Of a stretch of 64,000 bases of DNA, positions 34,736-55,979 are shown one piece after another. The notes beneath the pieces are model-generated. The model was given only the letters and a program-made list of their open reading frames with translations, did no database searches and had not been told where the DNA came from. The DNA is from Rufibacter sp. XAAS-G3-1. Lineage in GTDB: Bacteria > Bacteroidota > Bacteroidia > Cytophagales > Hymenobacteraceae. Position 1 is the stretch's first letter. Each line of letters starts with the position of its first letter. The stretch lies in the NCBI RefSeq assembly GCF_013623775.1, contig NZ_JABFAM010000005.1, forward strand, positions 310,001 through 374,000, written 5' to 3'. A program made the position numbers and the translations under genes.

Positions 34736-35551
34736 TTAGCTTGTTTTGGTTTTAGCTTCGTTCCAATAGACATCCATTTGGGCCAAAGTCATCTCACTTA
34801 GTTTCTTCCCCTGGGCAGCAGCTGCCTGCTCCAGGTACTGGAAACGGTGAATAAACTTCTGGTTGGTTTTAGCCAGCGCCTCCTCTGGGTTGAGCTCCAG
34901 AAAACGGGCAAAGTTGATGAGTGAGAAGAAAACATCGCCCAACTCATCGGTTGCTTTGGCCTTGTCCTGGGGGCTTAAATGGGGTTTGTCAAACTCAGCC
35001 TTGAACTCAGCTATCTCTTCTTCCACCTTCTCCCAAACTTTGGAGGGTTCATCCCAATCAAATCCAACGCCGCGGGCCTTCTCTTGGATGCGCATAGCTT
35101 TCACCATGGACGGAAGTGATGAAGGAACGCCTGCCAAAACAGATTTATTGCCCTCCTTCAGCTTTAAACTCTCCCAGTTCTTTTTAACTTCTTCCTCTGT
35201 GTCGGCTTTGGTGTCTCCGTAAATGTGCGGATGCCGGAAAACCAGCTTGTCACATTGGGCATTCAAAACCTCCGCAAGATCAAATTCTCCTTGTTCAGCA
35301 GCAATCTTTGCGTAGAAAACCAGGTGCAGCAGTACGTCGCCCAGCTCTTTTTTGATTTCCGGCATGTCCTGGGTGAGAATGGCCTCAGAGAGCTCGTAGG
35401 TTTCCTCAATGGTGAGGTGCCGAAGGCTTTCCATGGTTTGTTTCCTGTCCCAGGGGCATTTTTCACGCAAATCATCTAAAATATCCAGCAGACGGTTAAA
35501 AGCAGCTAGCTGGGCCTGTCTGGAGTAAGCGGGTACTGCGGGGGTTTCCAT
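34736..35551 (-). CDS. mazG: Nucleoside triphosphate pyrophosphohydrolase MazG
   Basis: 271 residues, close to E. coli MazG (263). It has two MazG domains. The first, near residues 20-115, carries CPWDRKQTMESLRHLTIEET and the Mg-binding E-x-x-E / E-x-x-D pairs (EETYELSEAI, KKELGDVLLHL). The second, near 155-250, carries KVWEKVEEEIAEFKAEF and TDELGDVFFSLINFARFL. It hydrolyses (d)NTPs to monophosphates and thus cleans the nucleotide pool. A TATCTTTG box just 4 bp before the ATG suggests a leaderless or nearly leaderless mRNA. Confidence 0.95.
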   Translation of the reverse strand: METPAVPAYSRQAQLAAFNRLLDILDDLREKCPWDRKQTMESLRHLTIEETYELSEAILTQDMPEIKKELGDVLLHLVFYAKIAAEQGEFDLAEVLNAQCDKLVFRHPHIYGDTKADTEEEVKKNWESLKLKEGNKSVLAGVPSSLPSMVKAMRIQEKARGVGFDWDEPSKVWEKVEEEIAEFKAEFDKPHLSPQDKAKATDELGDVFFSLINFARFLELNPEEALAKTNQKFIHRFQYLEQAAAAQGKKLSEMTLAQMDVYWNEAKTKTS

Positions 35552-35563: not shown

Positions 35564-35669
35564 AACGTAATGTTAGGATTTCATGCGCTATGCGTACTTT
35601 CTTAATAAAACAGTAACACAACAAACCTTGAACTTTACCGGTGCAAGTATAGTGGCGGACTCGTTTTCA

Positions 35670-35829
35670 GAGCTTGTTTGGATTTCAGGTTTGCCGGCTC
35701 AACTAACCAGAGAAAGGTTCTGCGAAAGCGTTTTTTGAGCAGCGTAGCAACGCTACGGGGTGACGCAACCGCGAACGCAGGTTCTTTTTAGGATTGTTTG
35801 CAGCGCAAAGATGAAATGTAAACAAACTC
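35670..35829. mobile_element. MITE-like element, copy 1 (160 bp)
   Basis: It begins GAGCTTGTTTGGATTTCAG and ends GATGAAATGTAAACAAACTC, imperfect terminal inverted repeats. The 3 bases before (35667-35669) and after (35830-35832) are both TCA, a target duplication. Inside are AGAGAAAGGTTCTGCGAAAG and a GTAGCAACGCTAC hairpin. Copies 2 and 3 are at 51435-51594 and 51690-51795. No protein is encoded. GAGC ends plus TNA duplications are those of the IS1031 group of the IS5 family. Confidence 0.88.
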
Positions 35830-35832
35830 TCA

Positions 35833-36320: not shown

Positions 36321-36328
36321 TACTTTTG
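36321..36328 (+). promoter_or_regulatory. Promoter of glmM
   Basis: TACTTTTG (TAnnTTTG) with TTG at 36301-36303, 17 bp upstream. It overlaps a TTG at 36326 that opens the longer reading frame, so the true start must be downstream, at GTG 36350. Confidence 0.62.
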
Positions 36329-36349
36329 CGTTTTCAAAAACAGGAATCA

Positions 36350-37744
36350 GTGGCACTTATAAAATCAATTTCAGGAATAAGAGGTACAATTGGGGGAGCG
36401 GTAGGGGAAGCCCTTACCCCGGTAGACGTCGTGAAATTTGCGGCGGCGTTTGGCACCTGGGTGCTGCAAACCACCCAGAACGATACCATTGTCATAGGCC
36501 GTGACGCCCGTCTGTCTGGCGAGATGGTTAACAGATTAGTGGCCGCTACGCTACAAGGCCTGGGCATTAACGTCATTGATTTAGGGCTGTCTACCACGCC
36601 AACCGTAGAGATGGCGGTGCCCGCCAAGAAAGCCGGCGGCGGAATTATTCTCACCGCCAGCCACAACCCCAAGCAATGGAACGCCCTCAAACTCCTGAAC
36701 CAGAACGGTGAATTCATCAATGACGCCGAAGGAAAACTGGTGTTGGAGTTAGCCGAGCAGGAGTCTTTCCAGTTTGCCGAGGTGACCAAACTGGGCAAAT
36801 ACACCCAGACTGATAAATTCCTGAAGAAACACATCAAAGCCATTCTTGACCTGCCCCTGGTAGACGTAGAGGCTATCAAATCCAAAGGCTTTAAAGTGGT
36901 GGTAGACGCCGTGAACTCCAGCGGAGGGTTTGCCGTGCCCATGTTGCTGGAAGCCCTGGGGGTAGAGCACATTGAGAAAATTCACTGCGACCCCACCGGG
37001 CACTTCGCCCATAACCCCGAGCCTCTGCCAGAAAACCTGGGCGAGATAGCCCGGGTAATGGAAAGAGGGAACTTTGACTTAGGCATTGTGGTAGACCCAG
37101 ACGTTGACCGGCTGGCGTTGGTGAACGAAGACGGCAGCATGTTTGGCGAAGAATACACCCTGGTAGCCGTGGCCGATTACGTGCTCCAGAACCAGGTAGG
37201 AAACACGGTCTCCAACCTGTCCTCTACCCGCGCCCTGCGCGATGTCACCGAGAAAGCCGGAGGCCAGTATTTTGCCTCGGCCGTAGGCGAGGTGAACGTA
37301 GTGAACATGATGAAAGCCCAGAACGCCATCATTGGCGGTGAAGGCAACGGAGGCATCATCTACCCAGAACTGCATTACGGCCGCGACGCCTTGGTGGGAA
37401 TCGCGCTGTTTTTGACCCATCTGGCTAAATCTGGCCTGAGAATGTCCCGCCTGCGGGCCAAGTACCCTAACTATCATATCTCTAAGAACAAGATTGAGCT
37501 TACCAAAGAGATTGACGTAGACGCCGTACTGGCCAGAGTGCAGAAACAGTACGCCAAACAGCCTATCAATACCATTGATGGCGTGAAAATTGAATTCAAC
37601 AAAGAGTGGGTGCACCTGCGCAAGTCTAACACAGAGCCCATCATTAGAATTTACGCCGAGTCTGAGAACATCTCTACCGCAGATCACCTGGCCAACAAGA
37701 TCATCGGCGACATCAAAGAAATCATCTCAGACAAATCTGAGTAG
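36350..37744 (+). CDS. glmM: Phosphoglucosamine mutase
   Basis: 464 residues from the GTG at 36350, giving ALIKSISGIRGTIGGAVGEA at the N-terminus, the usual start in Bacteroidota GlmM. It converts glucosamine-6-phosphate to glucosamine-1-phosphate for UDP-GlcNAc, cell wall and LPS. Seen: the phosphoserine loop TASHNPKQWNALK, the metal loop VVDPDVDRLALVNEDG, the sugar loop GGEGNGGII, and the phosphate-binding RKSNTEPIIRIYAE near the C-terminus. It is monocistronic; a palindrome follows the stop codon by 3 bp. A phosphomannomutase activity cannot be excluded. Confidence 0.93.
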   Translation: MALIKSISGIRGTIGGAVGEALTPVDVVKFAAAFGTWVLQTTQNDTIVIGRDARLSGEMVNRLVAATLQGLGINVIDLGLSTTPTVEMAVPAKKAGGGIILTASHNPKQWNALKLLNQNGEFINDAEGKLVLELAEQESFQFAEVTKLGKYTQTDKFLKKHIKAILDLPLVDVEAIKSKGFKVVVDAVNSSGGFAVPMLLEALGVEHIEKIHCDPTGHFAHNPEPLPENLGEIARVMERGNFDLGIVVDPDVDRLALVNEDGSMFGEEYTLVAVADYVLQNQVGNTVSNLSSTRALRDVTEKAGGQYFASAVGEVNVVNMMKAQNAIIGGEGNGGIIYPELHYGRDALVGIALFLTHLAKSGLRMSRLRAKYPNYHISKNKIELTKEIDVDAVLARVQKQYAKQPINTIDGVKIEFNKEWVHLRKSNTEPIIRIYAESENISTADHLANKIIGDIKEIISDKSE

Positions 37745-50717: not shown

Positions 50718-50810
50718 GCCTAAATCCCGCTCGCCTCCCGGGCGCGGGTGAGCTACGTGCGGACTCCGGCGGTGTGGATGAAGTTGAACGTGTTAAATAA
50801 TCTGAATCTT

Positions 50811-51425
50811 ATGAAAACGTATATCAAGTTCATTGTTTCAGTTGCCCTACTGTTTGCTTTTAAGCCTACAAGTTCTTTTGCGCAAATAAACAAAAACGAA
50901 TTAGCGTTAGGGCTGGGCCTTGCTTCGGGTAATGGATATCCTGTTTACAGGCTTCCAGACAGTGATGGCGGAATATATACGGCAATGCTTTATGCAGAAT
51001 ATGGTCTAAGCAATTTATTTAGCGCGGGGCCCTACTTTCTGTATTCACGTGAAGTGGCTACTTATACCAATGATTATTATCCTGCCTTAAACTCAAAAGA
51101 TGTCTGTTCTGGGTATGACGTTGGGGTGAGAGGTTCTTTCAATACAGGCTCCTTCCTATTTACACAATCAAACGTACACCTTTACTTTACAGGGTTTTAC
51201 GGTTATACCTTTAGGTCTGTGGTGTATGATAAAAAAAACATATACCGAGATGACTTCAATACCAAAGTACATGATGCCTATCATGGAGGATTAATTGGGC
51301 TATCCTATCATTTACATCCCAAAATTGAATTGTATGGTGAAGCCGGTTTCTCAAAAGAGTTAATACTGGGGGTAGGCTTTCGGTTCTTGGTGAAAAGAAA
51401 TAATAAGACATCATCAGTTATTTAA
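50811..51425 (+). CDS. Secreted or outer-membrane beta-barrel-like protein of unknown function
   Basis: 204 residues from the ATG at 50811, which begins a signal peptide (MKTYIKFIVSVALLFAFKPT, cleavage near FAQ at 25); an upstream ATG would hide it. The mature part alternates Gly, aromatic and polar residues (NELALGLGLASGNGYPVYRL, then FNTGSFLFTQSNVHLYFTGF, ending LGVGFRFLVKRNNKTSSVI), which suggests an 8- to 10-strand outer-membrane barrel. Base use is more AT-rich than in the flanking enzyme genes, which might mean horizontal acquisition. No family recognised. Confidence 0.72.
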   Translation: MKTYIKFIVSVALLFAFKPTSSFAQINKNELALGLGLASGNGYPVYRLPDSDGGIYTAMLYAEYGLSNLFSAGPYFLYSREVATYTNDYYPALNSKDVCSGYDVGVRGSFNTGSFLFTQSNVHLYFTGFYGYTFRSVVYDKKNIYRDDFNTKVHDAYHGGLIGLSYHLHPKIELYGEAGFSKELILGVGFRFLVKRNNKTSSVI

Positions 51426-51434
51426 CTGACGTTA

Positions 51435-51594
51435 GAGCTTGTTTACATTTGAGGTTTGCTGGCGAAAATGACCAGAGAAAGGTTCTGCGAAAGCGTTTTT
51501 TGAGCCGCGTAGCAGCGCTACGGGGCGAGAAAAAGGCGAACGCAGGTTCTTTTTATGGCCGTTTGTAGCGCAAAAATGAAATGTAAACATGCTC
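51435..51594. mobile_element. MITE-like element, copy 2 (160 bp)
   Basis: Ends GAGCTTGTTTACATTTGAGG and AAAATGAAATGTAAACATGC-TC; the TIR core GAGC[A/T]TGTTTACATTT is perfect but for one base. Both flanks carry TTA (51432-51434 and 51595-51597). It has exactly the same length as copy 1 at 35670-35829 and the same interior (AGAGAAAGGTTCTGCGAAAG, GTAGCAGCGCTAC hairpin). Confidence 0.9.
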
Positions 51595-51597
51595 TTA

Positions 51598-51689: not shown

Positions 51690-51795
51690 GAGCATGTTTA
51701 CATTTCATCTTTGCGCTGCAAAATGCCATAAAAACGCTTCCGCAGAACCTTTCTCTGGTCATTTTCGCCAGCAAACCTCAAATGTAAACAAGCTT
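51690..51795. mobile_element. MITE-like element, copy 3, internally deleted (106 bp)
   Basis: Starts GAGCATGTTTACATTTCATC and ends CAAATGTAAACAAGCTT, the reverse orientation of copy 2. It matches copy 2 end to end except for about 54 missing central bases, including the hairpin. Flanking triplets are CTA and TTA, two of three identical. Confidence 0.8.
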
Positions 51796-51832: not shown

Positions 51833-51882
51833 ATCTTGCGTTTAAGGCCTGTTTTTCTAAAAACAGGCCTTAAACGCAAGAT
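51833..51882. repeat. GCCTGTTTT-family palindrome, perfect 24-bp arms
   Basis: ATCTTGCGTTTAAGGCCTGT-TTTT and its exact reverse complement enclose two bases. It lies between the MITE pair and kynU. Confidence 0.92.
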
Positions 51883-55453: not shown

Positions 55454-55590
55454 ATGAGAGAATGAGGGGATTTGGAGATGAGGAGATGAGGAGATTTGGA
55501 AATTTGAAAATTTGAAAATGAACCTGTTTAGAGTTTTTCATTAACCGCATTTAAAGGAATTTCTCTGGGGCAAGTGCCCGCTTTTACCGT

Positions 55591-55628
55591 CGTTTTTAGG
55601 CTATTTTTATGAAAACAGGCTAAAAACG
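55591..55628. repeat. GCCTGTTTT-family palindrome
   Basis: CGTTTTTAGGCTATTTT and AAAACAGGCTAAAAACG, one mismatch. It shares the TTATGAAAAC loop region with its neighbour at 55671-55706, so both were probably copied from one source. Confidence 0.82.
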
Positions 55629-55670
55629 AGAGGTTTATTTGTACACTGCCGTAAGCGTCCGTCTGTACCC

Positions 55671-55706
55671 CGTTTTCAGGCTACTTTTATGAAAACAGGC
55701 GCAAAA
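55671..55706. repeat. GCCTGTTTT-family palindrome
   Basis: CGTTTTCAGGCTACTTTTAT then GAAAACAGGCGCAAAA, several mismatches. It is 42 bp downstream of a near-identical member. Confidence 0.7.
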
Positions 55707-55979
55707 TTCTAAACAGCTTCAATGAAAAGATGTTCAGTGGGGAGATTGGAGTTATTTTCTATAGCCGTCTACAGCCCGTATTTACTTCCGTGACTTCCTA
55801 GAAGCAGATCCCAAAGCACGGAAGTAAATCCGAGCATAATATCAAAAATCATCTCCACATCTTCTCATCTCCACATCTTCTCATCTCCACATCTTCTCAT
55901 CTCCACATCTTCTCATCTTCTCATCTCCAAATCTTCTCATCTCCTCATCTCCTCATCTCCAAATCCCAAAATCTCTCAT

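Follow-up and report, generated by a model that had tools for sequence, protein, structure and literature searches.

Three copies of a short repeat lie in the 64,000-nucleotide stretch of the Rufibacter sp. XAAS-G3-1 genome analysed here (the window), and they raise the question of which transposase moves such a small unit and what its interior contributes. The first-pass annotation had described them as MITE-like elements with GAGC ends, and we recovered all three at the positions, sizes and flanks given there: TCA/TCA, TTA/TTA, and CTA/TTA for an inverted third copy of 106 bp. Copy 1 (35670-35829, + strand, 160 bp) lies between a MazG-domain gene (34736-35551, - strand) and a phosphoglucomutase/phosphomannomutase-family gene (36326-37744, + strand). 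Its target duplication, TCA, occupies 35667-35669, with the right duplicate at 35830-35832. The left terminal inverted repeat (35670-35685, + strand) reads GAGCTTGTTTGGATTT, which is GAGCTTGTTTAAATTT with two changes, and the right terminal inverted repeat occupies 35814-35829 (- strand); between them lies the hairpin core (35686-35813, + strand), which scores 99 bits (E 1e-23) against R1, a covariance model of the core. Copy 2 (51435-51594, + strand, 160 bp) starts 9 bp past the stop codon of an ORF at 50748-51425 and is flanked by TTA at 51432-51434 and at 51595-51597; its core (51451-51578, + strand) scores 131 bits (E 3e-32). Copy 3 (51690-51795, - strand) is missing approximately 54 bp between short TTTTT repeats. 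Between copy 3 and a kynureninase-like gene, at 51833-51882, lies a perfect inverted repeat of 24 bp whose arms are separated by a loop of 2 bases.

The element is abundant in its own genome (G000, a 5.3-Mb draft in 73 contigs). With at most one mismatch allowed, the 16-bp end motif was found there at 142 + 139 sites, compared with 1 + 0 for the reversed control pattern, and the family is therefore not a product of chance. Since half of these 281 end sites corresponds to one end per element, we estimate that this Rufibacter genome holds approximately 140 copies. A BLAST search with the 160-bp unit recovered at least 40 sense copies, complete or almost so, with identities of 91-100%, a lower bound because 40 of 200 candidates were scored. 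Identical 3-bp flanks were observed in 45 of the 54 own-genome elements that have both ends in the retrieved loci, with one instance of CCA and TNA in the other 44, so that TNA duplications predominate as the first-pass annotation had claimed. When the flanks of these 54 elements were paired at random, identity occurred in a mean of 18.2 and a maximum of 28 elements in 1000 shuffles, and flank bases 4-6 are identical in none of the 54. A pattern scan of named genomes returned at least 75 stretches, from Pontibacter, Rufibacter, Botryobacter, Adhaeribacter and Saprospiraceae/Saprospirales MAGs. Among the matches listed, TNA flanks are present in 51 of the 70 copies with both ends, the 70 being what is left of 75 loci after removal of 2 that end at contig ends and of 3 of the remaining 73 with fewer than 12 of 16 end matches. 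The 39 full-length own-genome copies include two identical pairs and have a median identity to the consensus of 95.6%, which fits the fairly recent movement proposed earlier.

Shorter forms of 53 bp (n = 3), 106-111 bp (n = 5) and 146-154 bp (n = 3) also occur among the 54 own-genome elements. The earlier reading of copy 3 as a unit lacking about 54 central bases holds for its length and its gap, with the amendment that it is one rung in a ladder of such forms. The 53-bp forms (L066 2226-2278, L073 2061-2113 and L081 1927-1979) consist of little beyond both ends, and all have perfect TNA duplications; a like form is found in another species (L089 665-717, genome G012). Inspection by eye placed the junctions of the inspected 53- and 106-bp forms at the short direct repeats TTTGC and TTTTT. 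Because the junctions sit at direct repeats and the same 53-bp form is present in G012, the shorter forms seem to have arisen by repeated deletion and not to be subfamilies of their own. One right end, at L063 5161, is a lone end with no partner and a weak core match only (E 0.55). Further lone end motifs in the own genome, at L064 2554 and L071 1862, have no partner at element distance and no clear core. A composite element assembled from distant end pairs (3797 and 4526 bp) was rejected: the left ends and the 4526-bp right end have nearer partners.

Own-genome copies L002, L062 and L079 are inserted inside another repeat, uninterrupted paralogues of which, including one at window 55520-55638, align straight through the insertion point. 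The empty paralogue has a single TNA-like triplet and the filled site has two, most clearly for L079 compared with L015 (TGA) and for L062 compared with L060 (TAA). At the 51.4-kb locus that holds copies 2 and 3, all 15 of the other Rufibacter genomes retain the downstream gene, and the stretch fetched from each contains no match to the core; given that conservation does not extend to the upstream neighbour, we read this as absence from the locus and not as a clean empty site. Like the paralogous empty sites, this result favours the earlier interpretation. A second, unrelated repeat of approximately 201 bp lies at window 55520-55720, with ends GAACCTGTTTAGAGTTTTT / GAAGCTGTTTAGAATTT and flanks AAT/AAT, and three copies of the 160-bp element family are inserted in repeats related to it. 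A 921-bp IS5-family element on contig C17 of the own genome (L052 1116-2036, ATC/ATC) has ends similar to those of this second repeat.

Insertion sequences of the IS1031 group of the IS5 family are defined in ISfinder by ends that start with GAG and by a 3-bp TNA duplication. A search of eight relatives for end pairs approximately 900 bp apart recovered two copies of an 878-bp element in G012, flanked by TAA/TAA, and an 876-bp element in G021 (Adhaeribacter soli); broken ones are present at contig ends of G026. The G012 protein matches NF033580 with 152 bits (cut-off 110) and both PF13340 (DUF4096) and PF01609 (DDE_Tnp_1) above cut-off, and on these profile matches it is an IS5-family transposase; we take SIDSQ, ADAAY and TERAF, at 99, 173 and 215, to be its candidate D-D-E motifs. 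Relatives of the transposase at E 1e-60 or better occur in 20 of 150 genomes of the bacterial family. Ends were sought at 28 of 35 transposase places. Thirteen transposases are 71-100% identical to the G021 query, and ends are available for all of these except the one in G458. The resulting 12 IS elements are 864-880 bp long, and their ends either read GAGCNTGTTTAAATTT or differ from it by one change each. GAG stands at both ends in 10 of them, the others being G499, with GAT at both, and the second G012 copy, with GTG at one. Eight of the 12 have identical TNA flanks, and four have unequal ones, such as TAA/TCA in G021. An IS relative at 49% identity has the end GAGCTTGTTTGGATTT, identical to the left terminal repeat of copy 1. 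Relatives at a greater distance (approximately 43%) have ends like GAGNGTGTTNGGGAATT where these could be identified; approximately eight of the more distant relatives have no convincing ends.

The 160-bp element is present in 12 of 16 Rufibacter genomes and the full-length IS in one (G012). We found no IS transposase of this type in the own draft, where the best match is 46% over 58 amino acids. A PF01609 search of the own genome returned three transposases, including the IS5-type transposase on C17 (L052). We rejected the latter as the partner: its ends differ (GAASCTGTTTAGAGTTT), and it is part of the second repeat family. The full-length IS that the first-pass annotation had asked for, with a transposase and the 16-bp ends of the element, was confirmed in G012, G021 and other relatives and not found in the own draft; the autonomous element with matching ends is one that relatives carry. 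The element itself is short, lacks transposase coding capacity and has terminal inverted repeats, target duplications and many copies, all of which are typical of MITEs. With matching ends, TNA duplications and a full-length IS in relatives, the assignment as a MITE linked to the IS1031 type of the IS5 family is well supported and in our view very likely; it is of a known kind. By eye, the interiors of the IS and the MITE have no evident sequence in common beyond the ends, and the core occurs elsewhere behind other ends, so the further suggestion that these units are derivatives of such an IS is not borne out.

The interior has a feature that the first-pass annotation did not contain: the whole 160-bp unit forms one imperfect hairpin, with a core of approximately 128 nt. 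The predicted fold of copy 2 has -77.3 kcal/mol on the + strand (z -9.0) and -54.6 kcal/mol on the - strand (z -6.7). With DNA parameters, folds of the element are stable too, at means of -34.4 and -26.5 kcal/mol for the two strands. Across 51 rows chosen for diversity (alignment A2) we observed double-sided changes in 48 of 69 pairs (390 cells), counted on the same rows from which the structure was derived, and with cells that are not independent between related sequences; a further alignment, A4, is fitted to the covariance model. Shuffled controls gave a mean of 139 cells and slid versions at most 136, and none of 500 shuffles reached 390. With one row per genome (22 rows, from 35 model matches minus 13, of which 11 were antisense and 2 were shorter neighbouring copies), double changes remain in 40 of 47 pairs. 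The conserved internal loops are tandem GA/GA, GAA/GAA and G-U/U-U/U-G. GA/GA is kept in 44 of the 51 rows and GAA/GAA in 27, and these positions are fully paired in only 2 rows and 1 row, respectively. No Rfam family was matched at gathering score by window 33000-54000 or by 11 further loci, most of which contain element relatives; below that score, microRNA families account for 14 of 24 matches in one search and for 3 of 3 in another.

In two single copies of the own genome one hairpin arm has, by eye, turned into the complement of the other, as template switching from arm to arm would produce. In L080 a perfectly paired arm occupies the position of the family's GAA/GAA loop, and in L070 the left arm matches, by eye, an unusual right arm that is also present in the copy at 35670. 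Arm-to-arm copying seems to occur in these single copies and could make part of the covariation. The internal loops persist and are rarely fully paired, an argument against copying between arms being the sole force.

The pairing is also biased toward one strand. The RNA fold of the + strand is the more stable one in all 51 rows. Restricted to the 44 core pairs for which half or more of the rows are Watson-Crick, the count is 134 G-U cells and 44 A-C cells, an A-C on one strand being what would be a G-U on the other; by pair, 24 lean toward G-U and 6 toward A-C (p 0.0014). The terminal repeats, which act as DNA, have 25 G-U and 18 A-C cells. In the 22 rows from 22 genomes, the counts are 61 versus 23 cells and 19 versus 5 pairs (p 0.007). 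Outside Hymenobacteraceae they are 25 versus 11 cells and 14 versus 4 pairs (p 0.03), and inside this family (11 rows) the bias is not significant, at 24 versus 12 cells and 11 versus 9 pairs (p 0.82).

Mutations private to single copies were tallied for G000 and four named genomes, in the latter with the columns fixed by the search pattern left out. Those of G000 comprise 10 that give G-U, 9 that give A-C and 13 that are otherwise unpaired; for the five genomes together the numbers are 27, 24 and 34. Because private mutations have no such bias, the G-U excess does not look like the result of biased mutation, and decay of single copies seems to proceed regardless of it. In the four named genomes 77 of 115 private mutations fall in paired columns, compared with 82 expected. 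In G000, under a stricter rule than for the other four, they are rarer in paired positions (32 of 61 versus 69%, p 0.008), and weak constraint on single copies in the own genome is possible.

The core recurs behind ends other than those found in Rufibacter, and in distantly related bacteria the shape of the hairpin is better preserved than its sequence. Among 59 genomes searched, the own genome included, 20 have an element match, spread over 4 of 27 genera. Saprospiraceae/Saprospirales copies have the same core with other ends, such as GAGCCTATCCGAAAACC in L103, whose right end is shared by L159, and GAAG-type ends in L127 and L160. The covariance model R1 (129 positions, 42 of the 51 rows kept), applied with stricter filters, found the hairpin core in 8 of 394 other Bacteroidia genomes, from six other family codes (f22, f43, f44, f53, f57 and f73), and did not find it in 386 of the 395 Bacteroidia genomes searched. 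Three of the eight foreign genomes have weak matches only, with a best E of 6e-6 to 3e-5 per genome. With the threshold at E 0.01, R1 matches number 81 in G262, 49 in G369 and 14 in G141, including a few antisense doubles. No match was found in plasmid or phage collections searched in distant mode.

The ends of these foreign elements differ between lineages: GAAGTGGTTTAAACTT in G369, with flanks such as ATA, TAT and ATT; GAGCCTGTTTAAAATT in G285, with flanks TTA or TAA; and GAGACTGTTTAAGTTT in G141, with flanks TCA. Where the ends pair at 13 of 16 positions or better, the element is 157-163 bp long. G369 also has four IS5-family elements of 927-929 bp whose ends, GAAGTGATTTAAACTTTT and GAACTCATTTAAACTTTT (or GAAGTC...), are very like those of the local hairpin elements. 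In G262, one IS5-type element has an end, GAAGCTGTTTAAGGTTTT, similar to those of some hairpin units (L188, for instance, has GAAGCTGTTTAAGGGG); other hairpin ends vary there, and identical flanks were seen in only 1 of 9 scored copies. A relative matching NF033580 was not found in G141 or G081, and the matches in G285 and G414 are below cut-off. G369 is the one genome outside Hymenobacteraceae in which closely matching local IS ends were observed. The 7.7-Mb genome G262 (f22) also holds head-to-tail arrays (L214-L227) of up to 7 hairpin units with 140-165-nt spacing, all on one strand within an array. By eye, the terminal stems of these arrays vary by locus yet remain complementary, and in L217 and L219 the closing arm is kept by the last unit only.

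From the sequence comparisons, we infer that an IS5-type transposase moves the 160-bp unit. The gene-less MITE carries the 16-bp ends of an IS5-family, IS1031-type IS from the same bacterial family, and the transposase of that IS, acting in trans, would cut at GAGC and insert the unit into a TNA triplet, which is duplicated. The interior is a portable module of approximately 128 nt rather than an evident IS remnant, folding together with the ends into a single long hairpin, and it has been kept at near-constant length across several Bacteroidia families while the ends were swapped. Base pairing has been maintained by double-sided changes on one particular strand. Spreading lineages most likely need the fold, either in order to propagate or to survive the act of insertion, and it would act as RNA or as strand-specific single-stranded DNA, not as a per-copy benefit to the host. 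An IS5-end MITE with a portable hairpin core, selected for its fold on one strand in propagating lineages, is probably the best description. Because mutations private to single copies are unbiased, the need for the fold would lie at the level of the lineage; that selection acts there, on one strand, as RNA or single-stranded DNA, is the reading we favour, with a little more reserve. More tentatively, the strand-specific hairpin of approximately 128 nt may itself be the unit of inheritance, a passenger of several Bacteroidia families that depends for its spread on folding as RNA or single-stranded DNA and takes its ends from whichever IS5-type transposon is available.

An ordinary IS5-type MITE in which the hairpin is a by-product of a palindrome, with arms kept complementary by replication template switching and a fold that is not selected, is unlikely, although the arms of L080 and L070 look corrected by eye and MITE transcripts are said to fold in general (PMC10969869). 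Arm copying should erase internal loops, yet the loops are kept; it acts on both strands alike, on copies in both orientations, and does not predict a G-U excess on one strand, an excess that is moreover absent from private mutations. It also leaves without explanation the motifs and the length of approximately 160 bp that are common to families with different ends. Selection for cruciform DNA, or for the geometry of the double-stranded unit from end to end, as in transposase synapsis over approximately 160 bp, would account for the narrow length range of well-paired full copies and for the stability of the folds under DNA parameters, and we consider it a good deal less probable than selection on a single-stranded fold. 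A cruciform predicts no strand bias, because both strands are exposed and every G-T on one strand corresponds to an A-C on its complement, and a bias was observed; the shorter forms of 53-111 bp also have duplications, which speaks against geometry, although they may have shrunk after insertion.

Very unlikely, in our judgement, is a host-beneficial regulatory RNA, whether an RNase III site or an mRNA stabiliser, that is mobile by chance and of which each copy is kept for its effect on a neighbouring gene. Structured transcripts of Correia/ERIC-type MITEs do affect mRNA (PMC10969869, PMC2649163), and of the 109 copies with usable flanks, which remain from 114 once duplicates and those lacking a neighbouring ORF on one side are skipped, 108 fall in the intervals separating ORFs of 90 codons or more. 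However, the + strand of the element agrees with same-strand neighbours in 32 cases and opposes them in 27, and since this orientation is unbiased there is no hint of a cis-acting RNA. Private mutations are likewise without wobble bias, and the 51.4-kb copies have no counterpart at the locus in the other Rufibacter genomes. A MITE whose fold is selected in the lineages that propagate it remains our preferred reading.

Several known systems resemble the element in part. P. gingivalis belongs to the class Bacteroidia, as does Rufibacter; REP/REPIN elements are not known to make target duplications; and for ERIC we know of no matching IS and of no sequence shared with the Rufibacter element. GAGC ends and 3-bp duplications rule out membership of the 160-bp element in REP/REPIN, which are short, GTAG/CGTC-tagged palindromes mobilised by RAYT (PMC3733652). 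The MITE-like elements of P. gingivalis (BrickBuilt and MITE464/PgRS) likewise lack a transposase, have ends that match full-length IS5-family elements and, in several cases, have GAG-type ends as here (PMC4596501). BrickBuilt and 464/PgRS differ in having internal tandem repeats and interiors said to be dissimilar, and the duplications of BrickBuilt vary in length and sequence; the available text of that report mentions neither a conserved hairpin core nor exchange of ends around one core (PMC4596501). The Correia/CREE (NEMIS) elements of Neisseria are likewise small and mobile, with inverted repeats and a conserved core structure, and RNase III can act on their transcripts; they differ in ends and host, and conservation across bacterial families is not described in the available portions of these papers (PMC2649163, PMC10969869). 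ERIC elements of enterobacteria are repeats of similar size that can affect transcripts (PMC10969869). The partner IS agrees with the IS1031 group (PMC2516522, PMC3196728): it has ends that start with GAG, a 3-bp target and a single-ORF transposase of approximately 256 amino acids in approximately 880 bp. The 160-bp element itself, unlike that group, has no transposase.

Neither Rfam nor the open-access literature searched yielded a match to a conserved one-strand hairpin core with exchangeable ends, and no such element was reported for Rufibacter or Pontibacter in that literature. Bacteroidia genomics thereby gains a repeat that is defined by a covariance model and matches no Rfam family. The usual view of a MITE interior is that it fills the space separating two transposase binding sites; in this element it is the interior that is conserved, and the ends can be exchanged. 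If the tentative view of a passenger hairpin is true, the element would use DDE transposases by way of an RNA-level or single-strand step, and to our knowledge no such step is known for IS5-type transposons. With pairing that is kept and biased toward one strand at the level of lineages, set against private mutations that are unbiased, the possible dependence of a small DNA transposon on a folded RNA or single-stranded form becomes directly testable.
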